A stretch of DNA of 64,000 nucleotides from Duncaniella muris (GTDB taxonomy: Bacteria; Bacteroidota; Bacteroidia; Bacteroidales; Muribaculaceae), in assembly GCF_003024805.1 (NCBI RefSeq), contig NZ_PUEC01000001.1, forward strand, positions 1 through 64,000, read 5' to 3'. The notes under the pieces are model-generated. The model was not told the DNA's origin. It did not search any database and worked only from the letters and a program-made list of their open reading frames with translations. Made by a program: the position numbers and the translations under genes. This document shows, one piece after another, positions 1 through 62,689 of the stretch (positions within the stretch are counted from its first letter, which is position 1; each line of letters starts with the position of its first letter).

Positions 1-75
1 GAGATACCCTTTGAGCGGGTTTTCCTTGTTGGGCGTACCTTTTTGTCGCCCACCTGTTTTCTTACCTTTTGCCAT
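1..75 (-). CDS. Small terminase-like protein, N-terminal fragment
   Basis: Only the first 25 codons are in the window; the gene continues past the left edge. The start is the ATG at 75-73. The fragment is basic and contains GGRQKGTPNK, the N-terminal signature I associate with small terminase-like or DUF5681-like proteins of Bacteroidales phages, which would bind DNA during packaging. It is transcribed away from the virion genes at 155 and has its own late-type promoter 25 nt upstream. The role is inferred from this short motif only. Confidence 0.5.
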   Translation of the reverse strand, partial: MAKGKKTGGRQKGTPNKENPLKGYL

Positions 76-81
76 GATACA

Positions 82-121
82 AAACTTAAAAGTTGCCTGC
101 AAAGATAGTGCTGTAAATTAG
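82..121 (+). promoter_or_regulatory. Late-type promoter for gene at 155
   Basis: AAAACTTAAAAG on the plus strand (TTAAAA begins at 86) is followed 28 nt later by TAAATTAG at 114, one mismatch from TAnnTTTG. The upstream element is a perfect copy of the phage consensus. This and the minus-strand site form an overlapping divergent promoter pair. Confidence 0.5.
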
Positions 122-140
122 CGCACGAATTATAACTTTT
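100..140 (-). promoter_or_regulatory. Late-type promoter for leftward gene at 75
   Basis: On the minus strand AAAAGTTATAA (upstream element, TTATA beginning at 135) is followed by TATCTTTG beginning at 107, a start-to-start distance of 28 nt. Seven other sites in this window have the same spacing. The -7 box fits the Bacteroidetes TAnnTTTG consensus. It overlaps the oppositely directed promoter for 155. Confidence 0.6.
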
Positions 141-154
141 GAAACATCGCTATC

Positions 155-646
155 ATGATAGGAAGTTTAGTAGGCGCAGGTTTGTCGGCTGTCGGGAGCA
201 TTTTCGGCGGTATCTCGGCAAGCAAAGCAATGAAAAAGGTCAAGAAGAATCTGCAACAGCAGAAGCAGGCGAACCAAGACTGGTATGACCGCCGATATAA
301 TGAGGACGCGACCCAGCGTGCGGACGCACAGCGTATCCTAACCAAAACCGAGGAATCAATCCGTAACCGCAACCGACAAGCCGCCGGAGCGCAGGCTGTG
401 ATGGGTGGAACGGAAGAGAGTGTTGCGGCCGCCAAAGCCGCCAACAATCAGGCACTCGCAGACGCGACATCGCAGATTGCCGTCAATGCCGAGGCTCGCA
501 AAGACCAGATCGAGCAGACCTATCAGCAACGTGACGCGCAGATAAATGACGCTCTGAATAATCTTGAAATAAAAAAATCAGAAGCTATCTCGTCAGCCGT
601 GCAGGGTGTGACACAAGCCGGTGCAGGCATAGCAGGTGCATTCTAA
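155..646 (+). CDS. Small Gly/Ala/Gln-rich virion or ejection protein
   Basis: A 163-aa protein. The first 20 residues form a glycine-rich hydrophobic segment (VGAGLSAVGSIFGG) that could insert in membranes. Residues 25 to 145 are charged, Gln/Ala-rich and probably helical or coiled-coil, and the tail is again Gly/Ala-rich. This layout is common in internal virion proteins injected with DNA. It begins the rightward run that leads into the polyvalent gene, behind a late-type promoter, with 13 nt to the next gene. The ejection role is inferred from composition and context; no catalytic motif is visible. Confidence 0.5.
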   Translation: MIGSLVGAGLSAVGSIFGGISASKAMKKVKKNLQQQKQANQDWYDRRYNEDATQRADAQRILTKTEESIRNRNRQAAGAQAVMGGTEESVAAAKAANNQALADATSQIAVNAEARKDQIEQTYQQRDAQINDALNNLEIKKSEAISSAVQGVTQAGAGIAGAF

Positions 647-659
647 TCCTTTGTGACAT

Positions 660-1682: not shown

Positions 1683-1694
1683 TCATAATCCACT

Positions 1695-4600
1695 ATGGCA
1701 GAAGATAAAGTAACCAACCTATATAACGCATTTGTCAAGAACGGCTATGCGATGGAGCCGGAGGCGCAGTTCCGCGAGAACCTCAAAGACCCCAAGAAGC
1801 GCAAAGCCGCTTATGACGCTCTTGTTGCTGACGGCTACAACATGGAACCGTTCGCCGACTTTGAGAGCAATATCGGATTTGGCGCACCTACACCTGCGCC
1901 TGCGCCCACCGCCCCGACACCACAACAGCAGGCTCAACCTGCCGCGACCGCAGCCCCTACTTCCGTACCTGCTTCGGCAACTGCGGAAGAGCAAGAGCAG
2001 GCACCGGTCCAGTCTCAACCCGAACAGGCTGCATGGCAACCCTCCGAGCAGGAGAAGATACGAATGTCGTATCAGATGCACACCATGCTCAACGATTTCA
2101 AGCAAAAGTCAAAGGCACGCATAGAGCAGGTTCAGCGCATGACCGAGCCGCTCACGCCCGAAGGCAGGAAGAAACTCAAAGCCGCCAAATTCCAAGCGCA
2201 GCTTGCAGGCACTCCTACAAAGGTAATGGGATTGACACCGCCGACACCTGCCCCTGCTACCGAGGGAGCGGAGGTAGCCGCCGAGGGCGAAGCACAGCAA
2301 CAGCCAGTGCAGAGCGGTCAGTCGCCCGTACCTTACGGAGTGAAGTATATAGATGGCAAGGCTGTCACCCAGTGGTTATTGCCCGATGGCAGGCTCACAA
2401 CAAACTATTTGGAGGCAGACCAAGCCGAGTATGGCGCGCGAACCGCACGTCTGCGCCACCAGTTTGAGAACCGCATGAAGCAGAACGGACTTGACCCTGC
2501 CAAACCCGAAGATGTGGAGATGCAGGCGCAGTTTGACGCACAGGCCCCTGCATACAGCGTTGTAGCAGACCTTTGGCGTGAAGCCGAAGAGAAGCACAAG
2601 GCTGACAAAGAGCGCAACGCCAATAAGCATTGGAATAGTTATGCGTCTATGGGAGGCGGACGCGAGATGCGTGTAGTGACGACCTCTATGAATCGCCACG
2701 CTGACAATATTTCGCACATGACACGCTTTGACCTTGAAACGATGATGGACAATGCGTGGAATCGTGTCGGCTCACAGATTACCGCCAACTGCTATAACCG
2801 CCTGCGTCAGCAGTACCCCGGCGCAAGCGAAGAGGAATTGCAGGCTACCGCCTCGCAGATGGCACGTTCGTTGTCGGACAACGCCGTGTACCAGTATGCC
2901 GTTCAGCAGAACACGCCCAAAAGCACACTGGAATACTTCGGTCGTACTGTCGCAGACATGAACGTGGTTAACTCGATCAGCAAAGGTCTTGCCCGAAGCC
3001 AAGCAGGAACGAGTGGCGACCTTGCAGCTTATGAGGCCGCTATGGGTGAGTATGGCAAGAACCACCGCGTCGCGCAGGTGGCAGGCACAGTCGCAGGCAT
3101 GGCTGTTGACCCCGTGACATGGGTGTCGGGAGGTGTCGGCTCTGTCGCAGGCAAGGGTGCAATCAGCCTCGGTGGCCGATATGTTGCAAGCCGGGCCGCC
3201 ACATCTATGTCAACGCAGGTAGGCTCTCGCCTCTTCTCGTCATCGCTGACCGGTCGTATCATTACCGGGGCGGCCGCAGGCGGTGGCAACTTCGCCACAT
3301 ACGAAATGCTCAAAGAGGGCGAGAGCCAGTTTCTGCACGGCGGTCATGTCAATGCCGAGACCGGCGAGGTTGAGGGATATTCAGCCGGAGCAATCCTAAA
3401 GGCAGGCGGTCATGGCCTTGTCCTCGGTAGCGTGACCGGTACGCTGTCGCCTATGATAGGCAATGTCGCCGACAAGTATGCCAAAGCGACCACAAGCACG
3501 GCAGGCAAAGCAGGCGTACGCTTCGGAGAGGTAGCTGTCTCAACTGTCGCCGAGGGTACGGTGTTCTCAATTCCCCAGTGGATAAGCGGAGAGGGAGACG
3601 CTTTTGACGTGTGGACCGACAACATGGCGATGATGTTAGGTTTCAAGGCACAGCATGGAATCAAAAGCGCACCTCGTATGATTGCAAGCCTGCGCCCATT
3701 CAAGCCTACAAACGGCAGACCGCTGACGCAGGCAGAGCGCAACCACAACCGCATGGACTTTGAGGAGCGTCTGCGCCGGAATTTGGACGCAAGTCCGGGC
3801 GACCTATCATTCACAGCCGATGAGCGCGAGGAACTGCGCCGGACAGGCTATGGCGAACTCGCCGACCTGTTCAGCCGAGACCGCGTACAGGAAGCGCAGA
3901 ATCCCAACATCAACCCTGCCGAGGGTGCAATTGAGTTGAGGGCAGAGCGTGTGGAAGCCGAAACAATCCACCGCTCACCCGAATTTGACGGCTATTCGGC
4001 AATGGAAGAACTCATGCAGGACGGCAGGGTAAGCCAAGCCGCACGCGCCAAAGCATATTATATCCTCACCGGTCGTATGCTCCCGATGGGTAGCGTGACT
4101 GGCTACACCAAGACCACCGCCGATGATGGACGTGTAACAATCAATTCCACAACCGCCGACGGCGAGATTGTGACCTCTCGCACGTTCAAGAACGAGCAGG
4201 AAGCCAAGCAGGAGACCGATAACATCATGCGTCAGGCAGAACTCAACACCATTGATGTCGGCGAACGCTACAAGGAAGCAGTCGCCGATGATATGGTGCT
4301 TGACGCAGCTATCAGCGAGGTGTCTCCCGGCGCAGACCCTGCAACCATCAAGAAGATATATCGTGCCGTCAAGGCAGGGAATAAGGACGTGACGGAATCG
4401 CAGGTGCAGTTGGTTGAGTTTCTTGATGACGCTATCGGCCGCAACAAGGAGATTGCCGACAAGTACCGCCCCGAAGCAATCCGTGCGGAACTGATGAACT
4501 CGACCGGGATTGATGTGGACGCAGTTCTGCGTAAAATGCCGGGCAAGCGCACCGAGGCAGAACAGGCGGCTGTCAAATCGTATCTTGAACGGCTCTTTCC

Positions 4601-19300: not shown

Positions 19301-20764
19301 GAAAACGAATATGACGGCAAGATAATGAAAGCCTCATCTTACGGTATGCTTCCGAATATCGGAGTGGACGCATGGACAATCGCTGTAGGTAGCCACGGAG
19401 TTTACAAGACCCGAAAGGCTAAGTATCTGCGTTGGGGCATGGAAGAATCCCAGGCCGAAAGGCGTGCAATGCAGGACGCTGAACTTTGCTATAACAAGAG
19501 TCAGCAGTCAAGCGAGGGGCCTTTCATGGCACCAGTGCAGGTTGACCATACTTTCTACGCCACATCAGCAATGCTGTTCCGCAACTCTCCAACCTCCTAC
19601 ACACGCGAGGCACATACGTCAGCACGAAACCTCAAACGACTGATAAGCGGAGAGGTTAATGAGGAATATGTGGCAAAGCAAATACTCCGAACTCTCCACC
19701 CTAAGGCAGAAGGTGCATGGACTGATGCCGAATGGGCTAATGCTCGTAAGAATGCCAAGAGAGAGATAAGAAGTGCATACGTCAAGAACACTGTCAATCT
19801 CGCAATGTTCGGGTGGATATTGCCGTGGCTATGGAGAATAGGCGGCGTAGCACCTATTCTTTTGCTTAGCGGAGACGATGACGAGAAGCAGAAGCAATGG
19901 GAGGACGCAACGCGTCAGTCAATGTTTGCTCCAGTAGAGGGTCTTGCTTATGGTGATGTAATAGCAGATGGATTGAATATGCTGACAGGAGCAAACGAGA
20001 AATCTATATATAATCTCGGTAGAAGCAATCCTATCTACAGCGATATTATGCAGGCTGCAAAAAAAGCGGACAAAGATATGATGGCAGCCGCCAACGATGT
20101 AATAAATATCATTGGAGGTATGGCATTCGGAGTAAATCCGCAGACAATTACCGACTGGACTGCTGCTATCATAGACTACAATTCCGATGCACAGACTCAG
20201 AAAGAGTGCGCGTTGCTTGTGGCACGTTTATTGAGCTGCCCCCCAAGTCAATTGGAGAAAGTCTATTTTGAGGAACTTGACCTGACAGCGAAAGAGGCGA
20301 GTGAGATGACACCGCAAGAGGTTGCCGAGCGATATGCTGAATACAAGATGATGCGCGAAGAACCTCTGACGGGTTGGCTTCGTTCGGAAGCGGAGACCGA
20401 TTCAATTAAAGCAAACCGCAAGAAGAAAGTATTTGACTTTGCGAAAGAACGCATCAATAACAACGTTGCAACCGAGCGCACCAAGCAGTTGCTTTCGGAA
20501 TATGATGAGGTGACCAAGCGTCAGACCGAGATTAACAAACTCCGTAAGACCGACAGAGAGGCATTTCGCGCCGGGCGTAAAGAACTGCTTGAAAGTGTAG
20601 ATATGCGTACTCACGGAAGAGTAAAGCGATATAAACGCGATATGCAGAAACTGACCGAGCGTTATCTTACAGCTAAAACTCCAGCAGAGCGCGATTCTAT
20701 AGTTGGTCTGATGTTCGGAACACGCGACCGATTGCTTGAAGATTTGGACAACACGCAACAATAG
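13325..20764 (+). CDS. Giant polyvalent protein, C-terminal part (helicase, metallopeptidase-like)
   Basis: A 2479-codon frame continuing the polyvalent protein; the GTG at 13325 is probably not an independent start. Numbered from that codon, an SF2/SNF2-type helicase has Walker A HEVGTGKT at 106-113, DEAH at about 312, ATGTPISNT near 363 and motif VI MGRLLRQG near 655. At about 1090 there is HEVAGH within a hydrophobic helix, a zincin-type HExxxH site. Long coiled-coil tracts lie at roughly 1300-1560. The C-terminal third is virion-internal in style and has a hydrophobic segment near 2165-2185 (MFGWILPWLWRIGGVAPILL). Together with the upstream frame this supplies methylase and helicase functions likely used on incoming DNA. 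Confidence 0.85.
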   Translation: MSSRRRPTISDPKATSACAAKVDEIRDDFKSWLRSRMESAPELAKEIEETYNNIFNNSAPMTIPDEYIPEYFDGAARVIGGKPIKMRKHQSKAIVRGTMQSLMLAHEVGTGKTFTLITTAMEMRRLGTAKKPMIVVQNATLGQFVASAKALYPDARILSLEDKDRNAEGRKDFYAKIRYNDWDMVVIPQSVLERIPDHPDRERRFIEESIQEKMDVIEAMSKDREAGRAVAALKKDVENLRDQLNKLSDTETAEGEVTERVMVTSGSKPKKDGKRAAIAKENAKTRAEEMLNRATDDTLNFDDLGVDAILVDEAHEYKHLGFATAMQRGVKGVDPSYSKKCQGLYLKVKAVQEKSGGRNVIFATGTPISNTAAEVWTFMRYLLPREVMEGHNIWHFDDFVRNFGSIQQMLEFTTQGTYKENNRFAGYSNLPELARIWAGITDTVLTAEAGEVKSQIPELEGGQPTDLYLPQTNGLRAVLKFVRAQLKAYDEMSGQEKKENSHIPLVMYGIAKAAAIDARLVMANAPDDPHSKTNEAVRQTLRSLEDSKAYNGTVAIFADNYQRKNKGTGAVEFNLFDDIRTKLIAQGVPAEQVVIMRDGMTDKAKEKIFAKVNAGEIRVILGTTQRLGVGVNIQERLHTLMHIDAPNRPMDYWQRMGRLLRQGNMHKEMGIPVRVIRFGVEDSLDVTAYQRLKTKGAIADAIMHSKDLLANNLENRILEEEGDEFGNITAELSGSQYAMLQNQTEKELRKLQAKQDQHRQHQMYIHRAEPRLREQIEKFGNDIMRSNEILALLENNPTTITINGKTYQSREDMQKVFEAHNKAMAAKKQSVQQDEPITSTLTFDIGNVHFTLTTHVSQIAGYGGQGPLSFDVDVQHDVVSHDIDYKRSFGDIPLKRIINELVDSVTSGKEERSNREAWVNAKERNETDLAALLKDKGKPFEHGERIKELEQKLEEYTIAMQEELKEKEAKYAEMDANIEDATDITFTSEDDEDSEDTPTNGDGNKYREDDDIDYSTLSDSNPMAMEARISELSKKVHTPVRIIRSLEELNEITSHRKRNAKGWWSAKDNEVVIVLPNNVNVADVDNTFVHEVAGHKGLRAFIGEERFNEFLGEVYNHASNPIRKVIDKKTDDMVNAEADRLRVRKAQARERAGEDVNSSYYADMAEARVEAEAKREEFRKEATEEYMSELGGRIGSEGFEKMSRDELTLWGKIKAKVQSFLDKFLRGLKIAKSIRLNDKDLSYILYKSWKNLRDKQGKGGVFAEAEDVVMRRRTGYDADDVTRFRDPGLGLEETITKMKAEALQANTDNLQAKRDAMRAIGGNLNHLRQAMARQREYDITTAKSVKDLARILMENGLLDTLGNAEVKSLLAQVTNSIGRQDISKQVDRVFEIMVNNHLRNIEQTFGKLISMRTSRADGRGINVQGALDPDGEAILKIFNTWKSLSVDEIDGRIADAIDSMSDPYAPIAERATLEYTGLQIARDYAESIAKSKQEEKMMREEIKKAKEEKDAGRMTADAYRQFEEATRVSIQQMKLDRIAAYESLMMKLGGELRESVDRAKAWREAEKERVNSIHHLANSDMQGRELRGDREDTRLMKLRNHWLVNWLLEPMSTLDQMLKMFGSKNPNGEGYMQNHFMRGWIDAADREQEMKEAVHKQMDEKAAEIFGKRRTWHNGGTRKVDYTYSDLYDYAKAQPGATIEYYDGAEMREYEIGQGELLYLYAVDKMPMGRATNRRMGIDDATMQRITDALDPKLKAYADWVQDELLPRMGDSANEVHKKMFGADMDAIDNYFPFVRDKDALKREVENGQVTQTNDRISVQTGAIKKRVASVAKWNMRKCNFMDVLAKHVDEMTHWTAFAELNRDFGTLLSYNRLKQQVFAMNSVYGSGEQLWKRFQECCAIATDAYEPQRAKFDSWMVQGTKGVTMGKISLRPFTALKQTLSLPAFFGEVNMGYVAADLGTGGVKACQWAWKNMPNFRKRILSRTSGDYRLKENEYDGKIMKASSYGMLPNIGVDAWTIAVGSHGVYKTRKAKYLRWGMEESQAERRAMQDAELCYNKSQQSSEGPFMAPVQVDHTFYATSAMLFRNSPTSYTREAHTSARNLKRLISGEVNEEYVAKQILRTLHPKAEGAWTDAEWANARKNAKREIRSAYVKNTVNLAMFGWILPWLWRIGGVAPILLLSGDDDEKQKQWEDATRQSMFAPVEGLAYGDVIADGLNMLTGANEKSIYNLGRSNPIYSDIMQAAKKADKDMMAAANDVINIIGGMAFGVNPQTITDWTAAIIDYNSDAQTQKECALLVARLLSCPPSQLEKVYFEELDLTAKEASEMTPQEVAERYAEYKMMREEPLTGWLRSEAETDSIKANRKKKVFDFAKERINNNVATERTKQLLSEYDEVTKRQTEINKLRKTDREAFRAGRKELLESVDMRTHGRVKRYKRDMQKLTERYLTAKTPAERDSIVGLMFGTRDRLLEDLDNTQQ

Positions 20765-20800
20765 TTAAACGATAGTGGACGATGCATGGAGTTATCTTTG
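20761..20800 (+). promoter_or_regulatory. Late-type promoter for the portal gene
   Basis: ATAGTTAAAC (TTAAA begins at 20765) is followed by TATCTTTG at 20793, again 28 nt start to start. The upstream element overlaps the stop codon of the polyvalent gene. The predicted transcript starts about 20 nt before the portal ATG, which supports the start at 20826 over the in-frame GTG at 20775 lying upstream of the -7 box. Confidence 0.65.
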
Positions 20801-22789: not shown

Positions 22790-24910
22790 TCAGAAAACGG
22801 CCTCGGAAACGGGGCCTTTTCTTTTTCTCGCCTGTTCCAGCTTTTTGGGGATAATCCGTGGAATCTCCATCTCATAGAAGCAGATGTGCATACCGATAGC
22901 GCGTGTCATCAGCAAGTCATCGTGCTTGCCAACAATCGCACCATACGCCCCATTGGGCTTGCGTTCATATGTAAGATACTCAGCGAGACAACGCTTATCG
23001 CGCTCTGTGTACAGATGTTCTCGTATGACCTTGACAAGCGTTGATATAATCATCGGCTTTGTGGCGATGTTGGTGTGGAAGCCGTATTTACGCGGAATTC
23101 CCTGCCTTATCTCGTCCTCAGACTGACGGCGTGCGTAGAGGTTTGGATATATGGTTGAAATCTGATTGAGGATATATTGCGACTGGTCGCCACCCTCTAC
23201 TTGCCTTTCGCGGTCATGTGTCTCAAGAGTGTTGCTCTCTATAACCAGCAAGGAGTTGTTATAATAAGCCGCCACCTGTGCAGCTTTCCACGCGAGGCGG
23301 TCAATATCGCAATGCCCATACCATTGAGCGACCACAGCCGGGCGACCACCCTCAATCATATTCAAGCGGTCAATAACAAGGATAACCGACCAGTCGGCTT
23401 TAGACGAGCGACCGCCCACGTCAACGACAGTCAGATAGCGGTCAGTAATCTCAACATCATCATCTTCTTCGGGTTTCGCCCATATCCACAACTGCCCTTG
23501 CCTGTCCTCATGGAAACGCAGATTTTCAAGAGCCGATTCTCCCTCGTCTCCATCGGCATACACATCACCGATAAAACGAGGCGGACGGCACGCCTTGTCA
23601 AATTCTTCAACGTGGTATTTGTCAAACACCATTGTGCCGGAATGAACAAACGCCTCAACATCATCAGAGGGAAACTCGGAAGCCATAACGCCGTGGTCGT
23701 TCTTACCGCTACGCTCCTTGATGTACCAGTTGATTGCTTCCAGTGATGCACCTTTCTCCCACAGCCACCAAAGATACTTACCGCATTCCTCGCGTGTGGA
23801 TAGTACATTGTCGTTCTCCCGATTTTCGTAGAGCCACCGGGCAAAGTCACGCAGAGCCTCGCCGCTGTCAAAAGGCAGAGAATACTGCTCAATCTGAAAC
23901 CATGAAATAAACAACGCTTCAAACTGCGAGGGTATATCGGGGTCAGCGGCCGCAGAATATTCAGTGTGGAAGAAATTACCGGTTCCGTTTGCCGTTGATT
24001 CCATTACAATCATGGTAAGCGGACGCAGGAGAATACCCGAACATGCAGAACGCACAATATCTTCGGGCGACTTGCCGTCAGTCTTTTTCCATATACCGAC
24101 TTCGGAGAGGTGTACAAGAGAGTACGCACCGCCACGACAACCATCAGGACGCTCTGCTGTACCAATTTTAATCTTGCAGTTGCGCTGAGGCACGCGCGAT
24201 GTGGAGCCGGATTTACCGACCCCGACCATTTTAGGCTCATTCTCATTGTAGGTTTCTCCCATGTCATAGAGCAATTCAATAGGATATTCCTTAATCATCG
24301 TGTCGAACATATCCTTGATTTCATCGGAAGCCGTGCCTTGATGGGCGATGATAAGTGAATTGAGACCACGTTTGTGAAAGAACTGCAACCAAGCCATATA
24401 CAACTGGGTCGTAGTGGAGCCGCCCCACTGACGTGCTTTCAGCAGGATAAGACGTATCGGCAGACCCGCCTTTCGCTTCTCTTCAAAGCGTGATACCAGT
24501 ATGCGTTGAGGATAGCGCAGGCGAAAAAGCACGTCCGCGCCTGCGTCCTTGTTGTGTATCCACACAAGTGTAGCTGCCCAAAACGGAAAGTCATGACGAT
24601 AGCGTAAGCGGATAAATTTTTCTGCAACCTTGTCATGGTCGATGTCGTTAGGCTCAACGTGCATGACATCGGAAAGGAATTTATCAATAGATCCGGCCTT
24701 GATAAGTTTGCCGACAAAAGGGATTGCCATCATCTCGGCAGGCAACCACTGAACAGGTATAGCGAAATCGGAGATATATACCTGCACCCTCTCTCCAATA
24801 GACCCTTCCCCAGTTATCGGGTTGAACGGCGCATACATCACCTCATTCCTGCGGTCGTTCTCCGTCAATATCTTTTCTATATCGGTCAAACTGCTTGTCA
24901 TACCAACCAT
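22790..24910 (-). CDS. terL: Terminase large subunit
   Basis: The packaging ATPase and nuclease. The start is placed at ATG 24910 (or 24901, three codons later): the frame upstream is open but only shadows the neighbouring gene. The product is about 706 aa. The ATPase half has KARQWGGSTTTQ near residue 150 as its Walker A-like motif, YSLVHLSEVGIW as the Walker B region and MESTANG as the coupling motif. The nuclease half shows YLTVVDVGG, LLVIESNTLETHD and GKHDDLLMTRAIG, supplying the expected acidic residues. It overlaps the upstream gene (24843-25301) by 68 nt and is probably translationally coupled to it. It is transcribed against the portal and capsid genes. Confidence 0.9.
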   Translation of the reverse strand: MVGMTSSLTDIEKILTENDRRNEVMYAPFNPITGEGSIGERVQVYISDFAIPVQWLPAEMMAIPFVGKLIKAGSIDKFLSDVMHVEPNDIDHDKVAEKFIRLRYRHDFPFWAATLVWIHNKDAGADVLFRLRYPQRILVSRFEEKRKAGLPIRLILLKARQWGGSTTTQLYMAWLQFFHKRGLNSLIIAHQGTASDEIKDMFDTMIKEYPIELLYDMGETYNENEPKMVGVGKSGSTSRVPQRNCKIKIGTAERPDGCRGGAYSLVHLSEVGIWKKTDGKSPEDIVRSACSGILLRPLTMIVMESTANGTGNFFHTEYSAAADPDIPSQFEALFISWFQIEQYSLPFDSGEALRDFARWLYENRENDNVLSTREECGKYLWWLWEKGASLEAINWYIKERSGKNDHGVMASEFPSDDVEAFVHSGTMVFDKYHVEEFDKACRPPRFIGDVYADGDEGESALENLRFHEDRQGQLWIWAKPEEDDDVEITDRYLTVVDVGGRSSKADWSVILVIDRLNMIEGGRPAVVAQWYGHCDIDRLAWKAAQVAAYYNNSLLVIESNTLETHDRERQVEGGDQSQYILNQISTIYPNLYARRQSEDEIRQGIPRKYGFHTNIATKPMIISTLVKVIREHLYTERDKRCLAEYLTYERKPNGAYGAIVGKHDDLLMTRAIGMHICFYEMEIPRIIPKKLEQARKRKGPVSEAVF
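22794..22826. terminator. Bidirectional terminator between portal and terminase
   Basis: AAAA-c-GGCC, a 10-nt loop, then GGCC-TTTT forms a hairpin with one bulged base, followed by CTTTTTC on the plus strand. It lies just inside the last codons of the leftward terminase gene and just after the portal stop. It would therefore end portal transcripts and, with its A-rich left arm, terminase transcripts too. Confidence 0.6.
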
Positions 24911-25301
24911 TCTTAATACGATATATAAATTCTCCAACAGTACGAGGTGTGAGATAAAATTTCGGTGCAGGCTGACGAACAATATCAGACACCAAAACAA
25001 AAAGTGATTTATCCGGGTGTAAGTCGCGTAGAGCAATATATCTGCGAAATATCTCTTCAAACATCTCACGTTTATTCGGGCGCATACGTGAGAATGGCTT
25101 TCCAACCAACATACGCGATACCTCAACGGCGGCACGTTCTTCGGAAACCCAAAAGCGTTTGGCCGGAGATTCAGCCACTTTTTCAAAAATTTCGGGCATG
25201 ATAATGTAGTTAGCCAATGCAAGCTGCTCACGATACGCACGCATAAGGTCATCGTTGCGCTCTCGTGTAAAATCCATTATTGAGCCGAAATGTTTTGCCA
25301 T
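24843..25301 (-). CDS. Conserved packaging-module protein upstream of terminase
   Basis: A 152-aa basic, helix-rich protein paired with the large terminase and overlapping it. Conserved-looking segments are FWVSEERAAVEVSRML, MRPNKREMFEEIFRR and IVRQPAPKFYLTPRTVGEFI. I remember close relatives next to large terminases in Bacteroidales phages, without an assigned function. A DNA-recognition role as a second small-terminase-like subunit would fit the position and charge, but no helix-turn-helix is obvious. The gene at position 75 is the other small-terminase candidate. Confidence 0.6.
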   Translation of the reverse strand: MAKHFGSIMDFTRERNDDLMRAYREQLALANYIIMPEIFEKVAESPAKRFWVSEERAAVEVSRMLVGKPFSRMRPNKREMFEEIFRRYIALRDLHPDKSLFVLVSDIVRQPAPKFYLTPRTVGEFIYRIKNGWYDKQFDRYRKDIDGERPQE

Positions 25302-25335: not shown

Positions 25336-25399
25336 CAAAGTTACCCAATTCACGTCACAAAACTTAAAAGTCGCCCACGAATTTATAACCTTACTTTTG
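25336..25399. promoter_or_regulatory. Divergent late promoters for terminase and scaffold/capsid units
   Basis: On the plus strand AAAACTTAAAAG (TTAAAA at 25364) precedes TACTTTTG at 25392 with 28-nt spacing, driving 25437. On the minus strand TAACTTTG (plus bases 25336-25343) lies 42 nt from the terminase-pair start. Its upstream partner is the same quasi-palindromic ACTTTTAAGT read on the other strand, here 24 rather than 28 nt away. One element may therefore serve both directions. Confidence 0.55.
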
Positions 25400-37902: not shown

Positions 37903-37917
37903 CAACAGCATAACAAT

Positions 37918-39402: not shown

Positions 39403-39425
39403 TGTCTTTTCGGTGATACGTCACT

Positions 39426-39465
39426 AAACTTAAAAGGGTCTGCGCGGAGCAGGCCCTTATCTTTG
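39426..39465 (+). promoter_or_regulatory. Late-type promoter with a hairpin between its two boxes
   Basis: AAACTTAAAAG (TTAAAA at 39430) and TATCTTTG (39458) have the fixed 28-nt spacing. The spacer contains AAGGGTCTGC-gcgga-GCAGGCCCTT, a 10-bp stem with one G-T pair (39434-39458), which could act as terminator for the RT transcript. The promoter serves 39487. Confidence 0.65.
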
Positions 39466-40510: not shown

Positions 40511-40551
40511 AAAAGTTAAAGAGTGGCAGGGATTGTATATGGGTAACTTTG
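40511..40551 (+). promoter_or_regulatory. Late-type promoter for the lysis genes
   Basis: AAAAGTTAAAG (TTAAA at 40516) then TAACTTTG at 40544, 28 nt start to start. The predicted transcript begins about 17 nt before the holin ATG, which rules out the longer frame starting with GTG at 40464 inside the upstream terminator. Confidence 0.7.
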
Positions 40552-42778: not shown

Positions 42779-42802
42779 CAATAATCTAAATAATATCAAA
42801 CT

Positions 42803-43312: not shown

Positions 43313-43323
43313 CCCAACAGCCC

Positions 43324-43928: not shown

Positions 43929-46610
43929 TTATCTCGGTTGATTAGTGAGGCGTGGCGTGAACTGGACTGACGCGCCAAAGATACTTTCATCGGCACCAAG
44001 TGTAGCCACTCCTGCTATTCGGAAATATTTGTAAGGTGTTCCTCGGAAACCTCGTAAGAAATGGTCTTTGCTTGACCATACCAAATGCCAATTAACCAAA
44101 TCGCGTGAGCCATATAGCGCAGTTGCCACATTCCCATTACGGAAGAATCCTCGCTGAATGATGTTGTCAATAGTCTTGTGGATATTGATTGTGTCAAGTT
44201 TTAGAGGCCGTGTAACAAACATACTCTTGACTTGCTTGGCTTCGGTCTCGGAGAAATTAACTATGTTGTTATTGTTATCAACAGCCAGTGCTTCGGGATA
44301 GGAGTTGAGATGAGAGGCAATATTAGAAAATGTCATGCCCCACAGTTTTGATTTCAGCGAGAATACATAGGCGTAGGTAATGCCCGGCGCATAGACTATG
44401 ACACGCTGGTGGACATAGTCGTAAATCATACGACATTGTTTCAGGAACTCTGTAAACGGAAGCGTAGGCAGGCATTTGTCATTAACCGGAGAATGCCCTA
44501 ACATATCGTGCAGTTTACTGAAACCAGGCAAGTCAAGAGCATTAAAAGGATATTCCGAATTAATTGCTTCAGAAATACATTGTGTCTGAGAACCCGATAT
44601 GAGCATGATTCCTCGATCCGTGGGGAACAACACTGCACTATCCAGTTGGGTAATGCCATCGGCATTTATACAGACATCACGTGTGATAGGTTGCCGCGCC
44701 GAATATGTGCCAGTAGCCGACACTTCCAACGCCCATACGCCCTCAGATGTGAAAGCATAAAGAGGGAACTGACCAAACTGCCCCTCGGAAAGAGCCTTTG
44801 CAGCCGAACAAATGCCTTTTATTTCCCCAGTTCCAACCGTGTTTATGCCGAGAACCGGGAACACAAAAGGATTGTTGACCTCGGAGGTGTAAATCTTATT
44901 TGGAATATCAATCGTGCGGTCTGCGTTTGAACTTGCAGATGGCATACTGCCGCTCATTCCGGGATTATCCCAACCTGCAAAGTAGAAAGCACCATTGAGG
45001 AAACCATGCTGCTCCAGTTGAACCTCATAGCAGGAGGGAAAACCATACCAAGAGACAATGACCGCCTTGTAGGCATTGACATTTGGATAGTATAAGAAAA
45101 TGAATGGAGCGTCAAGACTTGCCATTTGACAACTCTCTCCTTGTACAATGATATCCTTTCCGTCTTGCTTTATAAAGAAATAGACTCCGACACTGGCTTT
45201 GTTATCTAAATAAGTCGGTGGCACATCTGCCCAGTTGGCTACATATCCGTCGGTATGGCACATCAAGGCTCCCGAATTGTATTCTGCATAGAGACGTTTA
45301 GATATATTACTCAGATTGAGGCGCGAATTGTATGTAAAGCAGTATCGTGGTATGAGAGTATCATGGCTGTCGTAATCATCAGTCATAACTTCTCGTGTCA
45401 CCAATGATTGTAGATAATCTTCTTCAACGGTCAGTTTTGTACGCGTAGTGGAAAGTTGCTCTACCTTAATACTCTCAAGCAGATAGAACTGAGATGTTGA
45501 GCGAATATCTTCTTTGACAGCATCAACGCTTCGGCGAGGAATCATCAAACGCCCCATCGGATATGAAAGATTAGTGGGGTTGAACGTGAAGGCGTAAAGT
45601 TTGTTGAACGTGTTGCGCTGATAACGCAGAGGATATGTTGCTGTAGAGGCCGCCTGATTGGTATGCTTGCACACACAATAGGAATTATATCCCTCAGACT
45701 TGGCGAACTTGGTACACTTGCCGTTCTGGTCGTAAGTGTAAATCGGTTTAGAAATAAAGACATCTACCGAGCGCACAATATCTTTCCAGTTATTGAGCAT
45801 ATCAAGCCTCGATTGAAGAATCACGGCATAATCAAGGGTATGCACCATTGCGCAGACACGAAGCTGCGCATCGGTGTATTTACCTTTGCCAGTGATGTGA
45901 GACCAAAACACCTGCGGAGTAAGGTCAGATGATGCTATCATGAGAACCGGCGAAGAGTGCATTGTGAGCGAACCATCGTAGAGACGGTAGGCGTAGCGGA
46001 CGAAGAAAGGAAAGATGAACTTGCCCTTATTGGTGGACTCATCAGCAATAAACTTATTGATATGTGCAAGCACTTGGTCTGTTATCCGAGTCTTGTTGTT
46101 ATCTGAAAACTCGTTCCAAATGCTACCCTCATTGATGGAGTCAAAGGAAATGGAAAATTCATCAGTCCTCACCATCTCGCCCTGCAATCCAAACGAGATA
46201 GGACATTCGGGTATCTTACCGCCCAAATAGAGATAGCCAGTTGCGCCACCTTTCCAAAGATAGTATTGCATGCCATCATCAGTAAGGAATATCAGTGTGT
46301 TGCCGACTGATGTAACCTTTATATACTTTGATATTGTTCCGATGGTTGTCAGTGTGTCCGGGGTCTCTTTATCATACCAACTAAAAGAGTTTGAATTTTG
46401 GACGATATAATGTGTATATCCCGAATTTTTATGGATATACACGCAATTACCGATAGTTGCAGATGTCTGTCCTTCAATTTTCGGAGGCAGGACCGGTTTC
46501 AATGCTCCATCTTCCGGCACAAGATTTATGGCTACTGCAAGTTCGCCGTCCTGACATTCGTAGTCGGACGGCTGTGCGGAGTAGCCATTGTACTTTATTT
46601 CTTTGTTCAT
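43929..46610 (-). CDS. Tail hub / tubular-type virion protein
   Basis: An 893-aa beta-rich protein with many Tyr, Ser and Asn and few charged runs. The N-terminus (NGYSAQPSDYECQDGELAVAINLVPEDGAL) and the propeller-like later region (LYAFTSEGVWALEV, VLFPTDRGIMLISG) match the large tail-tube or hub proteins of short-tailed Bacteroidales phages. No tape-measure or sheath gene is present, which fits a podovirus-like particle (inference). Its start overlaps the upstream stop by 4 nt, and base composition is slightly more AT-rich than the head genes. It is transcribed from the late promoter at about 47.0 kb. Confidence 0.65.
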   Translation of the reverse strand: MNKEIKYNGYSAQPSDYECQDGELAVAINLVPEDGALKPVLPPKIEGQTSATIGNCVYIHKNSGYTHYIVQNSNSFSWYDKETPDTLTTIGTISKYIKVTSVGNTLIFLTDDGMQYYLWKGGATGYLYLGGKIPECPISFGLQGEMVRTDEFSISFDSINEGSIWNEFSDNNKTRITDQVLAHINKFIADESTNKGKFIFPFFVRYAYRLYDGSLTMHSSPVLMIASSDLTPQVFWSHITGKGKYTDAQLRVCAMVHTLDYAVILQSRLDMLNNWKDIVRSVDVFISKPIYTYDQNGKCTKFAKSEGYNSYCVCKHTNQAASTATYPLRYQRNTFNKLYAFTFNPTNLSYPMGRLMIPRRSVDAVKEDIRSTSQFYLLESIKVEQLSTTRTKLTVEEDYLQSLVTREVMTDDYDSHDTLIPRYCFTYNSRLNLSNISKRLYAEYNSGALMCHTDGYVANWADVPPTYLDNKASVGVYFFIKQDGKDIIVQGESCQMASLDAPFIFLYYPNVNAYKAVIVSWYGFPSCYEVQLEQHGFLNGAFYFAGWDNPGMSGSMPSASSNADRTIDIPNKIYTSEVNNPFVFPVLGINTVGTGEIKGICSAAKALSEGQFGQFPLYAFTSEGVWALEVSATGTYSARQPITRDVCINADGITQLDSAVLFPTDRGIMLISGSQTQCISEAINSEYPFNALDLPGFSKLHDMLGHSPVNDKCLPTLPFTEFLKQCRMIYDYVHQRVIVYAPGITYAYVFSLKSKLWGMTFSNIASHLNSYPEALAVDNNNNIVNFSETEAKQVKSMFVTRPLKLDTINIHKTIDNIIQRGFFRNGNVATALYGSRDLVNWHLVWSSKDHFLRGFRGTPYKYFRIAGVATLGADESIFGASVQFTPRLTNQPR

Positions 46611-46978
46611 AGCGGAAGCGCAGTTATGATTGGGAGATATGTTGTATCACCACGAACGAAAGCCTCGCCAACCATGTAGGCGACTTGTTCAGCCTTCACT
46701 CCGACTGAATCAAGCAGGGCCCGACATAGGCGCACGGAGTATGCGCAGTAGTTGTTGCTCCCTCTTTTGGTGGGATAGCACTGTGCCTCATGGCGACCGA
46801 TGTTGTTGACTCGGTGGACAGCATGCAAAAGATACTCGCCGTTGCTCACGGCTATGTTGATTGAATCACCCGGACGCAGGGTGAGGATACGCGCCACTTT
46901 TGCCGTAATGCGGATAGTTCCTCTTTTACGGCTGAATGAGATATCGGGTCGGCGCGTATGTTCCAATAGTTTAATCAT
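46607..46978 (-). CDS. Small protein coupled to the tail hub
   Basis: A 123-aa basic protein. The start is ATG 46978, only 5 nt after a perfect TATCTTTG box, so the mRNA is probably leaderless; the longer frame starting at 47158 reads through the promoter and into the methyltransferase gene. A beta-rich N-terminal part (ISFSRKRGTIRITAKVARIL, then LRPGDSINIAV) is followed by an alpha-helical end. It overlaps the hub gene by 4 nt and is probably its assembly partner. I do not recognise the family. Confidence 0.6.
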   Translation of the reverse strand: MIKLLEHTRRPDISFSRKRGTIRITAKVARILTLRPGDSINIAVSNGEYLLHAVHRVNNIGRHEAQCYPTKRGSNNYCAYSVRLCRALLDSVGVKAEQVAYMVGEAFVRGDTTYLPIITALPL

Positions 46979-46983: not shown

Positions 46984-47026
46984 CAAAGATACTGGGGTTT
47001 GGTTGTGATATTGTTTTAAGTTTAGA
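46984..47026 (-). promoter_or_regulatory. Late-type promoter for the tail-hub unit
   Basis: Minus strand TAAACTTAAAAC (TTAAAA begins at 47019) then TATCTTTG (begins 46991), with the fixed 28-nt spacing. It lies between the end of the early operon and the first hub-unit gene, so late genes here can be switched separately from early genes on the same strand. Confidence 0.7.
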
Positions 47027-53308: not shown

Positions 53309-53744
53309 TATCTGTGGATAGTTTAGCTTTATACACCTCAACCAGTTTGGTCTCAGTAATCGCCTCAATCTCGTAATCGGCCATGGTGCCGCGCATTCCG
53401 TCAATGAAATTGTCGTAGGCTTCTTTGAAACTGGAAGCCTGCACAAGGATATACGAGGCTGTTTTCTTTTCGGTCGCGGTCTTTTCATCAAGTGTGATGA
53501 AGTTGATCTTAACCTTGTAGAACTTATCGCCAGTCTCATCCCAAAAGATTTCGGCAATCTTGGTTGTGACAACCGATGATATGCGGAAGTCTCCGCTGAT
53601 GAAAGGCTGGAGTTCCTCAGTCACTCTTGCTTCTGCTTCAGTGCAGGACAGCGCGTCAGCGAGATAAGGTTCGGTTACTTTCTTGACCGAGCCGTTCTCC
53701 ATCATCTTGTCGTAACGCGCTCTTACTTCAATCCACTGTGCCAT
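53301..53744 (-). CDS. DUF4494-like phage protein
   Basis: A 147-aa protein with WIEVRARYDKMMENGSVKKV and LADALSCTEAEARVTEELQP, the signature I associate with DUF4494 proteins that are frequent in Bacteroides phages and mobile elements. It is mostly beta-rich with a helical end. It lies in the replication module between the HU gene, which it overlaps by 17 nt, and the nuclease. No biochemical function is known to me. Confidence 0.65.
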   Translation of the reverse strand: MAQWIEVRARYDKMMENGSVKKVTEPYLADALSCTEAEARVTEELQPFISGDFRISSVVTTKIAEIFWDETGDKFYKVKINFITLDEKTATEKKTASYILVQASSFKEAYDNFIDGMRGTMADYEIEAITETKLVEVYKAKLSTDNG

Positions 53745-54015
53745 TGTTGAGTAGTTCTTTAAGTTCTTTACTGATTCTGAATTTCACGGTGCGGCGGGCA
53801 GGAACGACTATCGGTTCTTTGGTCTTGAAGTGAACCGCATTGCGCTCTTCGCGCTGAACAACGGAGAGAGTGCCGAAGCCTCGCAGGGTTACTTCCTCGC
53901 CCTTGCTGAGTGCTTCCTTAATGACACGGAAAACTCCGTCTACTGCCTTGAATGCCGTTGAGAGGCATAGTTTCTCTGAAACTGCTACCTCTTTGGCTAA
54001 ATCATTTTTTGTCAT
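53728..54015 (-). CDS. HU/IHF-type DNA-binding protein
   Basis: A 95-aa nucleoid-type protein. The helical N-terminal half is followed by EEVTLRGFGTLSVVQREERN, the beta-arm region VHFKTKEPIVVPARRTVKFR with the Pro that intercalates DNA, and a C-terminal helix (ISKELKELLNN). Phage HU proteins bend DNA for replication or packaging. The residues match the HU fold, with the usual GFG turn and arm. It overlaps the 53-aa gene upstream by 14 nt. Confidence 0.85.
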   Translation of the reverse strand: MTKNDLAKEVAVSEKLCLSTAFKAVDGVFRVIKEALSKGEEVTLRGFGTLSVVQREERNAVHFKTKEPIVVPARRTVKFRISKELKELLNNGTVD

Positions 54016-59652: not shown

Positions 59653-59680
59653 GGACTATTTGGTCGGGTCTAAATAGTCC
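59653..59680. other. 9-bp hairpin next to the tRNA-like element
   Basis: GGACTATTT, loop ggtcgggtct, AAATAGTCC is a perfect stem. It lies in the 213-nt gap between the RecT start and the 59719 gene, which otherwise holds only the tRNA-like element and no supported coding frame. Confidence 0.6.
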
Positions 59681-59718
59681 TGTTGAGTTCTTTGTAGCAG
59701 TCGCAGGTCTGCCGTGCG

Positions 59719-59901
59719 TTATTCCAGTTTGCCCGGACGCTTGCAGGGGCTGACCTTGCCCTGCCTGCGCCACCGCTCCACGTTCCTACGTCCGAATATC
59801 TCATAGGCTTTCCGTTGGCTAATGTATTCGGGGTCGGCTTCATCTTTCTTGAGAAGGTGGACGACCTCAGCGGCTACATCTTTCACGAATACGCCATACA
59901 T
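59719..59901 (-). CDS. Small DNA-binding-type protein
   Basis: A 60-aa protein. SQRKAYEIFGRRNVERWRRQGKVSP reads like a short helix-turn-helix with a winged or MerR-type recognition part, similar to small excisionase-like proteins of Bacteroidales mobile elements. The N-terminal helix (VAAEVVHLLKKDE) precedes it. It could regulate the early operon or excision. No integrase is in the window to test the latter. Confidence 0.55.
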   Translation of the reverse strand: MYGVFVKDVAAEVVHLLKKDEADPEYISQRKAYEIFGRRNVERWRRQGKVSPCKRPGKLE

Positions 59902-59941
59902 AGGGTACGCTCTTGTCGGAAAACTGGAGAAACGTCATTGA

Positions 59942-61195: not shown

Positions 61196-61235
61196 TTCTG
61201 AGGTTATTTGGCTACTTTTTAGTAACTTCGAGTGC

Positions 61236-61274
61236 AAAGATAATCATAATTATGTTTCCAACATCATAATGATG
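61236..61274. promoter_or_regulatory. Early leftward promoter and paired operators
   Basis: TATCTTTG on the minus strand (plus bases 61235-61242) is the early -7 box. Beside it are ATCATAATTATG (61243-61254) and ATCATAATGATG (61263-61274), 11 of 12 bases identical and exactly 20 bp apart, each embedded in a palindrome (CATAATTATG; CATCATaATGATG). They lie between the divergent repressor and early operon and are the likely CI-type operators. They would occlude the -7 box when bound. Confidence 0.7.
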
Positions 61275-61330: not shown

Positions 61331-61723
61331 ATGAAGCCAATACCCGACATCCACATCGGCGAAGAGATAAAAAGCCGATTTGATAAGTCCGGCCTAACTC
61401 AAAAGGAGTTTGGGTCAAGAATTGGAATGCCACAGCAGAACGTGAGCAGAGTGTTCAATGGAGAGAGCATAGACACCAAGAGGCTTGTTGCTGTAAGTCG
61501 GGCATTAAACTTTAATTTCTTTGAACTCTACGCAAGCATAGACTATCACGAGGTGCATACCGAGGGTGACTATTCGCCTGCCTCCGATAGTGGAGACATC
61601 TCCGTAATCGTTGGAGATGCCGTCCTCGCAGAGCGAGTGAGGTTGTTGCAACAACTAATGGAAGAAAAGGACGAGCGTATAACTGAACTCAAAGAACGGA
61701 TCGAGGAACTGAAAGCAAAATGA
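61331..61723 (+). CDS. CI-like repressor with C-terminal coiled coil
   Basis: A 130-aa helix-turn-helix regulator. Residues 10-65 form an XRE-type domain: IKSRFDKSGLTQKEFGSRIG, MPQQNVSRVFNG and SIDTKRLVAVSRALNFNFFE. A short linker rich in Asp/Ser follows. The C-terminal 35 residues (RVRLLQQLMEEKDERITELK) form a coiled coil for dimerisation, in place of a cleavable peptidase-type domain. It is transcribed away from the early operon across paired operators and is the likely lysogeny repressor. The absence of a LexA-type protease domain implies induction by an antirepressor or another route. Confidence 0.8.
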   Translation: MKPIPDIHIGEEIKSRFDKSGLTQKEFGSRIGMPQQNVSRVFNGESIDTKRLVAVSRALNFNFFELYASIDYHEVHTEGDYSPASDSGDISVIVGDAVLAERVRLLQQLMEEKDERITELKERIEELKAK

Positions 61724-62085
61724 ACAACAGAATGATGTTTTACGTGCAAACTGCGTGGATTGGAGTAATAGGTGGTTGTTCGTTATGGTTGAGCAGATTA
61801 ATTTCTGATAACTATTGGATATCAGTTCCGCTGTTTTTGCTTATGTGGATTGCGCTAAGTTTCATCGGAATGGGATTGATAGGTTTATGCAACCCAGACC
61901 ATAGGTTATGCGCCAAATACGGGATTAAGATAGAGAATCTTCCGCTTTACCAAAAAGCATTTGAAGAACTTGTAGAGGCGGAAAAACGAGGCGAGGATAC
62001 GCAATGGATAGGAGACGAATTGCCGGATAAAAATGAATGGCTTAGATACCTCAGCTATGAAATAGAGCAGGGGCTAACGAAATAA
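61720..62085 (+). CDS. Two-helix membrane protein of the repressor operon
   Basis: A 121-aa protein with two N-terminal membrane helices (TAWIGVIGGCSLWLSRLI and VPLFLLMWIALSFIGMGLIGL) and a cytoplasmic part with ENLPLYQKAFEELVEAEKRG. It overlaps the repressor by 4 nt, so it is expressed in lysogens. Membrane proteins in this place often exclude superinfecting phages; that is an inference from operon position. Confidence 0.6.
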   Translation: MNNRMMFYVQTAWIGVIGGCSLWLSRLISDNYWISVPLFLLMWIALSFIGMGLIGLCNPDHRLCAKYGIKIENLPLYQKAFEELVEAEKRGEDTQWIGDELPDKNEWLRYLSYEIEQGLTK

Positions 62086-62092
62086 AAATTAT

Positions 62093-62482
62093 ATGGAACT
62101 GAAAGAATTTATAAAAACAGCAATAACTGATATCACTGAAGCAGTCAGCGAGTTGCAATCGGAACTCAACAATGGGGCGATAGTCAATCCGACTTTGCCA
62201 AATCCGATTGCGTTGAAAACACTGACGGTTGATAATGAGATTCGCCCGATAGAGCAATTGGCATTTGATGTTGCTGTGACGGCGACGGAAGCATCGGGTA
62301 TAGATGGCTCTGCGAAAGCAGGAATCAGCATCTTCGGCGCGAAAATCGGAACCGAATCAAGTGCAAAGACCGAAAATGTGTCAAGACTTACGTTTTCAGT
62401 CCCAATAGTATTTCCGACAACACACGTTAAGACCCCACAAGAAATCATGAGGGAAAAGAGACCGAAAAGGCCGACTGATTAA
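62093..62482 (+). CDS. Trypco2-like domain protein
   Basis: A 129-aa protein. The pattern LKEFIKTAITDITEAVSELQ, then IEQLAFDVAVTATEASG and SRLTFSVPIVFP, matches the trypsin-co-occurring domain 2 (trypco2) family found in bacterial conflict and peptidase-linked systems. The C-terminus is REKRPKRPTD, a short tag like those on two virion-type proteins of this phage. It is the last gene of the repressor operon, 7 nt after the membrane protein. A lysogen-expressed defence or immunity role is inferred. No trypsin-like peptidase is adjacent. Confidence 0.6.
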   Translation: MELKEFIKTAITDITEAVSELQSELNNGAIVNPTLPNPIALKTLTVDNEIRPIEQLAFDVAVTATEASGIDGSAKAGISIFGAKIGTESSAKTENVSRLTFSVPIVFPTTHVKTPQEIMREKRPKRPTD

Positions 62483-62643
62483 ATCCAGTCATCCCAATCC
62501 TCACCAGTTAGTCGCAGGAATGCCTCATCTGCTTGTGCAGCGGCCTCATATGCATAATTGAATCTGCCAGCGTAATGCTTAAAGAGTTTGCGATAAAGAC
62601 GTGAGTATAGCAAACGTTTAATTGTTCTGAATATATTTTTCAT
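62479..62643 (-). CDS. 54-aa basic protein with late promoter
   Basis: ATG at 62643 opens a 54-codon frame, basic at its start (MKNIFRTIKRLLYSRLYRKL) and acidic at its end (TGEDWDDWI). I remember similar 50-60-aa proteins in Bacteroides phages and conjugative elements. The ATG is 4 nt after the -7 box, so the mRNA may be leaderless. Its stop overlaps the convergent trypco2 gene stop by 4 nt. Its function is unknown; late timing is inferred from the promoter. Confidence 0.6.
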   Translation of the reverse strand: MKNIFRTIKRLLYSRLYRKLFKHYAGRFNYAYEAAAQADEAFLRLTGEDWDDWI

Positions 62644-62647
62644 GCCG

Positions 62648-62689
62648 CGAATATACGGCGGTTGGCATCATTCTGACTTTTAAGTTTTG
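62648..62689 (-). promoter_or_regulatory. Late-type promoter for the 54-aa gene
   Basis: Minus strand CAAAACTTAAAAG (TTAAAA begins at 62683) then TATATTCG (begins 62655), again 28 nt start to start. The upstream element is perfect and the -7 box has one change from TAnnTTTG. The +7 position falls at or just after the ATG. Confidence 0.6.

Follow-up and report, generated by a model that had tools for sequence, protein, structure and literature searches.

What switches on the late genes of temperate phages in the Bacteroidota? The question is raised by the first 64,000 nucleotides (nt) of contig NZ_PUEC01000001.1 of Duncaniella muris (assembly GCF_003024805.1), the stretch analysed here and hereafter called the window. 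The contig is 195,595 bp long and belongs to a 3.27-Mb genome. The prophage in the window is cut off by the beginning of the contig; its right end lies between 63,107 and 63,372, and host genes follow from there. A preliminary description of this DNA, made from the sequence alone, had claimed a phage-specific class of late promoters, in which a TTAAAA-like element lies exactly 28 nt, start to start, before a -7 box TAnnTTTG at eight sites on both strands. The analysis reported here points to late promoters of temperate podovirus-like Bacteroidota phages that would be served by the host RNA polymerase with its primary sigma factor, together with a phage-encoded DNA-binding activator on the element. 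We give this reading a probability of about 0.85, with a protein of the family phrog_27246 as the leading candidate for the activator.

Eight promoters of one architecture

All eight elements and -7 boxes were found where they had been described, with a start-to-start distance of 28 nt in every case (Table 1). Sites are named by the start of the element core and the strand, the element itself beginning 5 nt before the core (for instance, element 81-90, core start 86). The text of the element is CAAAAC then TTAAAAG at 86+, 25364+ and 62683-, CTAAAC then TTAAAAG at 39430+, CTAAAC then TTAAAAC at 47019-, CAAAAG then TTAAAGA at 40516+, CAATAG then TTAAACG at 20765+, and CAAAAG then TTATAAT at 135-, the poorest fit among the eight to the word originally proposed. 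The box TAnnTTTG is exact at six of the eight sites and carries one mismatch each at 86+ (TAAATTAG) and 62683- (TATATTCG). The end of the box lies 4-37 nt from an ATG at all eight; among the leftward sites, the ATG of an AbrB-like gene follows 5 nt past its box (near-leaderless) and that of a 54-amino-acid (aa) open reading frame (ORF) 4 nt past. In record G036 a site precedes a small gene similar by eye to that behind late promoter 8, and the eighth site is therefore probably real too.

As for the units downstream, some names and starts needed correction. The portal and holin genes (the latter by Pfam PF05105) now start as given in Table 1, the gene behind 39430+ (a promoter that sits after the reverse-transcriptase gene) is a DUF4376 gene, and the first gene behind 47019- is the AbrB-like gene, with the hub-like gene second. 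The gene at 155 is T7-gp14-like, with a score of 26.8 bits where the cut-off is 27. Scaffold, tail hub and small terminase are names carried over from the preliminary description, and PHROGs gives the first two as of unknown function. The small-terminase-like gene is truncated by the contig start; its counterpart in phage BF1-TP2 is labelled DUF5681 in its record, and the BF1-TP2 and BS-TP4 copies of the protein gave no real match against Pfam.

A spacing of exactly 28 nt

Scans of the window left the spacing free. TTAAA precedes an exact TAnnTTTG at 28 nt five times, and at none of the distances 20-27 and 29-36. A looser pattern ([CG]TTAA with at least five of the six fixed box letters) gave seven sites at 28 and at most two at any other spacing from 15 to 44, and in 60 dinucleotide shuffles the same pattern gave a mean of 0.97 and a maximum of 4 at 28, the shuffles' best spacing of the 30 averaging 3.1 and never exceeding 5. 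Throughout the D. muris genome, [CG][AT]TAAA followed after 23 nt by TAnnTTTG occurs five times in the 64-kb window and twice in the remaining ~3.2 Mb. The preliminary description had proposed a matrix built from its eight sites; the matrix scan here was performed with 163 sites of relatives, none of which has a 25-mer in common with the window (sharers were dropped); the training sites include orthologues of the window promoters, and the matrix is thus independent in sequence, not in descent. Ranks 1-8 in the window were exactly the eight sites, at 22.6-32.6 bits, and the ninth hit, at 6.9 bits, was the -7 box of the early promoter. Nothing else in the window rose above 6.9 bits, and 380 kb of host DNA held no hit of 16 bits or more and one of at least 14. 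The two objections of the preliminary description that such a scan could bear out, hits just as frequent inside genes or in the host, were not borne out.

The same distance recurs in relatives. When the window and the fetched relatives were scanned together, A[CG][AT]TAA preceded an exact TAnnTTTG at 28 nt in 222 distinct sites (distinct strings, many of them orthologous) and at 26, 27, 29 and 30 nt in 1, 1, 13 and 1; in 215 of the 222, an ORF of 50 aa or more starts with ATG within 120 nt. A separate set of 50 genome-contig loci, which may share some phages with the viral set, gave 51 sites at 28 and at most three at any other spacing of 15-44. When any spacing from 24 to 32 could be chosen, 28 was the best upstream of the scaffold side in 31 of 32 regions and upstream of the portal in 38 of 47; another spacing was chosen in one scaffold-side and four portal regions, and five portal regions fell below score. 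In the 20 phages of full length, an exact box preceded by a looser element was found 71 times at 28 and 13 times over the other twelve spacings of 22-34. The spacing evidence rests on these scans, the shuffles and the orthologue-upstream counts given below, none of which imposes 28; in reading variant elements, in the mutual-information work and in the partial Mantel tests on viral-record sets, the elements are read at 28 by construction.

An artefact of chance or composition would draw on the A+T-rich words that are frequent in some phages, and an exact-pattern scan of viral contigs did place 20 loci at 27 and 16 at 29 beside 44 at 28 among the 80 loci listed; many of these look unrelated, and that scan was not used for judging the distribution. 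The window spacing scan, the shuffles, the relatives' matrix, the genome-contig loci and the 222-site count contradict such an origin, which we consider extremely improbable, and the original judgement that chance explains the constant spacing poorly is upheld. As a side observation, positions 1031-1070 of locus L388, on a 3.1-kb contig (C60) of the same genome, hold a near-copy of the promoter with spacing 29, possibly from another phage.

Conservation upstream of late genes in related phages

The gene order of the prophage is that of the Bacteroides phages BS-TP4 and BKO1-TP3 and, more distantly, that of BF1-TP2. Relatives of its portal gene were found at the 50 genome-contig loci, the best (100%) in a Muribaculaceae isolate, and carry the labels Muribaculaceae, Prevotella, Bacteroides, Phocaeicola, Prevotellamassilia, Alloprevotella and others, with one metagenome-assembled genome labelled Bacillota. 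Upstream of orthologues, the strict element stands at 28 for portal in 34 of 78, scaffold-like in 18 of 71, holin in 5 of 8, DUF4376 in 4 of 18, AbrB-like in 7 of 18 and gp14-like in 4 of 8, and before none of these six was it ever at 27 or 29. It was also found at 28 in 2 of 28 hub-like orthologues and in 4 of 19 of the large terminase, the start of which is wrongly placed. Before operon-internal genes it was absent (gp2 0/3, capsid 0/51, endolysin 0/24, reverse transcriptase 0/8). Many of the remaining orthologue upstream regions, read at 28, carry the close variant AAAAG-ATAAA. Element, 28-nt distance and gene context thus recur in many related phages, and in these respects the claim of a phage-specific promoter class is strongly supported; its late timing is a prediction.

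The host -7 box without the host upstream box

In PMC7366714 and PMC9723704, TAnnTTTG is the -7 box of the primary-sigma consensus, that of the sigma-ABfr (sigma-A) promoters of Bacteroidota. The phage sites have this box and lack the TTTG near -33 of the canonical sigma-ABfr promoter. In 360 kb of host DNA, TTAAA was never found at 28, and TTTG peaked at 23 and 24 nt before the -7 box (17 and 14 sites), in agreement with the earlier statement that the host has TTTG near -33 instead of the element. In the window, no exact -7 box has TTTG at 23 or 24, and one has it at 25. The sigma-ABfr promoters are like the phage class in their box and differ in having TTTG near -33 at variable spacing (23/24 in this host), as against a 10-bp element at exactly 28. 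Use of the element by the host itself was considered and rejected, as the pattern is nearly confined to the window within its own genome and no host matrix hit reached 16 bits in 380 kb.

The early operon promoter had been said to lack the element, and indeed the matrix gives 6.9 bits at 28 nt upstream of its box (61270), against at least 22.6 for the eight. The element is common to virion and lysis operons and missing before the early operon, as would be expected of activator-dependent late promoters.

Change of element at constant geometry

Taken over the phages, the element is about 10 bp long with the consensus AAAAG(A/T)TAAA, and it falls into classes: CA(A/T)A(C/G)TTAAA in the window and G029, AAAAGATAA in BS-TP4, BKO1-TP3 and G034, TTAAC(C/G)G(A/T)TAA in G037, G038 and G041, AGAACTTA in G042, and TTATYGTTATG in BF1-TP2. 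The last occurs at three sites, each 28 nt from its box and two of them 49 nt apart. An early view of BF1-TP2 as promoter-free (one match at 28, five elsewhere) was overturned by this different element at the same geometry. The geometry is therefore conserved while the specificity of the element is not, since BF1-TP2 keeps both 28 and 49. Both BF1-TP2 and BKO1-TP3 are phages of Bacteroides, which makes a phage-coded reader of the element more likely than a host-coded one.

A face-to-face pair and leaderless starts

Late promoters 1 and 2, common to the gp14-like (ejection) and small-terminase-like operons, face each other; their boxes stand back to back with 6 nt between them, the elements lie outside, and the cores are 49 nt apart. 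Both elements were matched independently, 49 nt apart, in 13 of the 20 full-length phages, and BF1-TP2, G041 and G042 fit the pair when read at the imposed geometry. With 28/28/49 imposed, 35 of 38 records had scores of 9 or more out of 12 for both boxes; the box score failed in G035, G042 and G051, the pair of G042 scoring 12/12 in another run. With the geometry left free, back-to-back boxes at phage-side loci numbered 24 distinct at a gap of 6 and at most five at any other gap of 0-15. Start sites were inferred from the position of the TAnnTTTG box, -12 to -5 in F. psychrophilum (PMC9723704). As each start site falls within the opposite promoter, simultaneous occupancy is unlikely, and the two facing promoters would hardly be occupied together.

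Among the 215 sites with an ATG, the distance from box to ATG peaks at 4 nt (18 sites) and again, more broadly, at about 20-40 nt. With the box at -12 to -5 (PMC9723704), a gap of 4 nt puts the A of the ATG at +1; the mRNA would then be leaderless, which is to be expected chiefly of the abrB-like operon.

Proposed mechanism

What is observed is the motif, its exact spacing, conservation and gene context, its absence from host DNA and the change of element at constant geometry; we infer that the promoters act late, depend on an activator and are read with the host primary sigma factor, and which protein the activator is. The -7 box TAnnTTTG of the host is kept and the host -33 TTTG is absent, and the element of about 10 bp, its core 28 nt upstream of the box, spans about -45 to -36. 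In the proposed mechanism, a phage-coded DNA-binding protein on the element would make a rigid contact with the host RNA polymerase, probably at sigma region 4 or nearby, and so replace the missing -33 contact, turning on late operons on both strands together. The preliminary description had offered a phage activator or altered sigma use. The kept box, the lost -33 TTTG and the different element of BF1-TP2 at the same distances sharpen this, and speak for a DNA-binding factor encoded by the phage rather than one of the host; that an activator is needed is a prediction.

A phage-coded or host alternative sigma factor might instead read the element together with a host-like -7 box. Two-part recognition at a fixed distance is typical of sigma factors, and the near-exclusive 28 would fit one rigid protein. 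However, the -7 box TAnnTTTG is that of the consensus for the host primary sigma (PMC7366714, PMC9723704), the core of the element starts some 4-5 nt upstream of where the host has its TTTG (23/24), and among about 45 window proteins and ORFs scanned, three giant proteins lying outside the scan, there was no sigma-like Pfam match; we think this explanation unlikely. Alternatively, the element could be an operator for a repressor or silencer of the late promoters in the lysogen, the -7 box alone being enough once freed. At the scaffold/terminase junction the element does overlie the leftward promoter's -33 region, as the site of a repressor might, but no exact -7 box of the window has a TTTG at 23/24 to be freed, and an operator would need no single exact distance across 222 sites, so that a role of this kind is very improbable.

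The candidate factor phrog_27246

If an activator reads the element, phrog_27246, a family of unknown function, is the leading candidate. It was found in all 20 full-length phages examined, the window included. A search for universal families, seeded with the ORFs of 50-420 aa of G037 and G040, gave in all 20 phages (antisense frames aside), besides phrog_27246, proteins of the late operons, capsid, portal and tail proteins among them and most of unknown function. Its gene adjoins the large terminase, and the protein may be a packaging protein instead.

Co-variation of protein and element was assessed by partial Mantel tests in which other proteins of each record served as the control, with identical phrog_27246 sequences dropped; the permutation leaves shared descent in, and the results are hints, not proof. 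For the scaffold-side element phrog_27246 gave 0.467 (0/500, n=63; other proteins -0.022 to 0.077), for the portal element 0.291 (0/500, n=49; others -0.011 to 0.114), and for the distant small-terminase/gp14 pair 0.455 (0/1000, n=30; portal protein 0.255, 5/1000; others 0.102-0.135). The scaffold-side value was 0.468 (0/500, n=31) in the genome-contig set, and the pair gave 0.428 in 29 records. These full sets hint that the divergence of phrog_27246 tracks the element at the scaffold side and at the pair; the portal element is inconsistent.

Several results weigh against this reading. For the portal element, phrog_27246 did not co-vary in the genome-contig set (-0.019, n=25; scaffold-like 0.290), nor in any of the four smaller subsets (-0.012, -0.224, -0.008 and -0.016), in which gp14 gave 0.209 and hub-like 0.344. 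On the pair, phrog_27246 gave 0.001 in an 11-record subset, and in a 16-record subset the hub-like protein (0.466) exceeded it (0.251), AbrB-like standing at 0.144. A first head-to-head run on the pair, with wrong elements for BF1-TP2 and G035, had given AbrB-like 0.589, hub-like 0.35-0.50 and phrog_27246 0.02-0.24. Sequence searches with phrog_27246 returned no recognisable DNA-binding domain and nothing above chance, and mutual information between element bases and protein columns singled out no protein. As to the promoters themselves, the portal and hub upstream stretches of BF1-TP2 showed no such site, only three having been seen in that phage, and of the 13 distinct sites at spacing 29 three lie within 60 nt of an ATG.

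The same mechanism could also work with another phage factor, an AbrB-like, small HTH-like or HU-like protein, an alternative that we consider possible though with the odds somewhat against it. The AbrB-like gene has the element in its own promoter, its copy in G029 is a weak AbrB-family match below cut-off, and its partial Mantel value was on par with that of phrog_27246 for the scaffold-side element (0.292, 0/400, against 0.296; n=24) and above it for the portal element (0.217, 4/400, n=20). Its value of 0.589 on the pair (1/500) comes from the run with two wrong elements; on the corrected pair it was 0.144 (73/400, n=16), and the protein was not found in 4 of the 20 element-bearing full-length phages (G033, G034, G037, G039). 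HU gave 0.457 (0/400) on the scaffold-side element in 10 records, above the 0.332 of phrog_27246, but was not found in 8 of the 20. The HTH-like gene has an early position and is present in 14 of the 20 phages, the broken window copy included; its absence from the other six, together with the little co-variation seen (0.003, 0.155 and -0.082 on three elements, n=11-12), weakens it as the factor, though diverged copies of any of the three proteins may escape sequence search.

A leftward -7 box (Table 1) would serve phrog_27246 and the large terminase, and its -33 region is covered by the element of promoter 4, at 21 nt here and at 18-21 nt in 51 of 73 rows kept after low-scoring or duplicate regions were dropped. 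This divergent arrangement is possibly self-restraining: from the shared element, phrog_27246 may activate the scaffold-like operon rightward while restraining itself leftward. A broader proposal, speculative and in our view possible though less likely than not, is that phrog_27246 might found a new family of late activators for Bacteroidota RNA polymerase, with rigid 28/49 geometry, with specificity split into about five element classes, and with a regulon of partly leaderless mRNA. Its gene, pointing away from the capsid operon, would share with it one site, from which rightward transcription is activated and the leftward promoter of phrog_27246 itself held back.

Coordinates and other features of the prophage

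Table 1. Late promoters, other -7 boxes and candidate factor genes in the window
Feature	Position	Strand	Details
Late promoter 1	81..121	+	element 81-90, core 86, -7 box 114-121; T7-gp14-like gene ATG 155
Late promoter 2	100..140	-	element 131-140, -7 box 100-107; small-terminase-like gene ATG 75
Late promoter 3	20760..20800	+	element 20760-20769, -7 box 20793-20800; portal ATG 20826
Late promoter 4	25359..25399	+	element 25359-25368, -7 box 25392-25399; scaffold-like ATG 25437, capsid 26366
Late promoter 5	39425..39465	+	element 39425-39434, -7 box 39458-39465; DUF4376 gene ATG 39487
Late promoter 6	40511..40551	+	element 40511-40520, -7 box 40544-40551; holin ATG 40575, amidase 41032
Late promoter 7	46984..47024	-	element 47015-47024, -7 box 46984-46991; AbrB-like ATG 46978, hub-like 43929-46610
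Late promoter 8	62648..62688	-	element 62679-62688, -7 box 62648-62655; 54-aa ORF ATG 62643
phrog_27246 gene	24843..25301	-	152 aa; leading candidate factor
Leftward -7 box (TAACTTTG)	25336..25343	-	would serve phrog_27246 and large terminase
Early operon promoter -7 box (TATCTTTG)	61235..61242	-	
AbrB-like protein gene	46607..46978	-	123 aa; rival candidate factor
HU-like protein gene	53728-54015	-	rival candidate factor
Small HTH-like gene of the first early operon	59680-59940	-	family of BKO1-TP3 gp4 / BS-TP4 gp54; rival candidate factor

The window copy of the HTH-like gene is disrupted twice, close to its start by a frameshift and close to its end by an in-frame stop; the family occurs in 13 of the 19 other full-length phages, and G028 has an HTH_17 (excisionase-like) protein at the same place. 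Past the right junction (63107-63372) come host genes for a transporter and for what look by eye like an oxalyl-CoA decarboxylase and a formyl-CoA transferase. On this side the window prophage showed no integrase. In BS-TP4 the integrase is flanked by the counterpart of the last gene of the window prophage and by the small-terminase-like gene, and that of the window prophage is therefore probably on another contig.

The giant gene at 1695-20764 (plus) appears as two overlapping ORFs of 3,898 and 2,479 aa, where BS-TP4 has one gene of 16,176 nt; a frameshift, an assembly error or a real split may account for this. A phage-type reverse transcriptase (phrog_1423) occupies 37689-39402 (plus). Just upstream of it is a 231-bp stretch with 84% identity to the same place in BS-TP4, the sole near match of window 20001-44900 in the phage collection and possibly the template repeat of a diversity-generating retroelement. 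At 42233-43848 (plus), three adjoining late genes belong to one similarity cluster. Homologues of the large terminase are called 'tail spike protein' in PQ571277 (gp7), PQ571269 (gp51) and PQ571263 (gp60), probably a mis-annotation.

Comparison with known phage activators

Among the titles and abstract beginnings listed for open-licence literature, no late promoter class for gut Bacteroidota phages appeared, although one may exist elsewhere. The invariant spacing would allow late operons to be annotated from sequence alone in many such phages, and the promoter class offers a route to finding the activator. About five element classes on one geometry would amount to natural specificity variants on the unusual primary sigma factor of the phylum, and the facing pair and the leaderless starts make exact predictions for 5'-end mapping.

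Phage activators that work with the host RNA polymerase from a site upstream of the -10 box are familiar from P2 (Ogr/delta) and lambda (CII), which differ from the present case in site positions and protein families; none of these families was found among the Pfam-scanned window proteins. Nor did the proteins scanned, which exclude the three giant ones, give a Pfam match to MotA or AsiA, or the scanned proteins one to C/Mor. The T4 middle promoters depend on sigma appropriation by MotA and AsiA, with the MotA box centred at -30 (PMC2988021). By analogy in Bacteroidota, they resemble the class described here in keeping the host -10 box while a phage element replaces the host upstream box. In T4 the element is read by a phage activator, here a predicted one; the T4 host sigma and its boxes differ from those here, and the MotA box lies at -30, as against about -45 to -36 for our element. 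The four late promoters of Mu have a site for the C protein by or just upstream of -35 (PMC4461284). The likeness lies in one phage activator for several late operons, as is proposed here, and in a site near or upstream of -35, and the difference in four promoters of varying architecture as against a constant spacing across many phages. Given the different position from MotA and the lack of a homologue among the proteins scanned, the class is filed under neither system, but it would appear to work in the manner of T4 MotA or Mu C.

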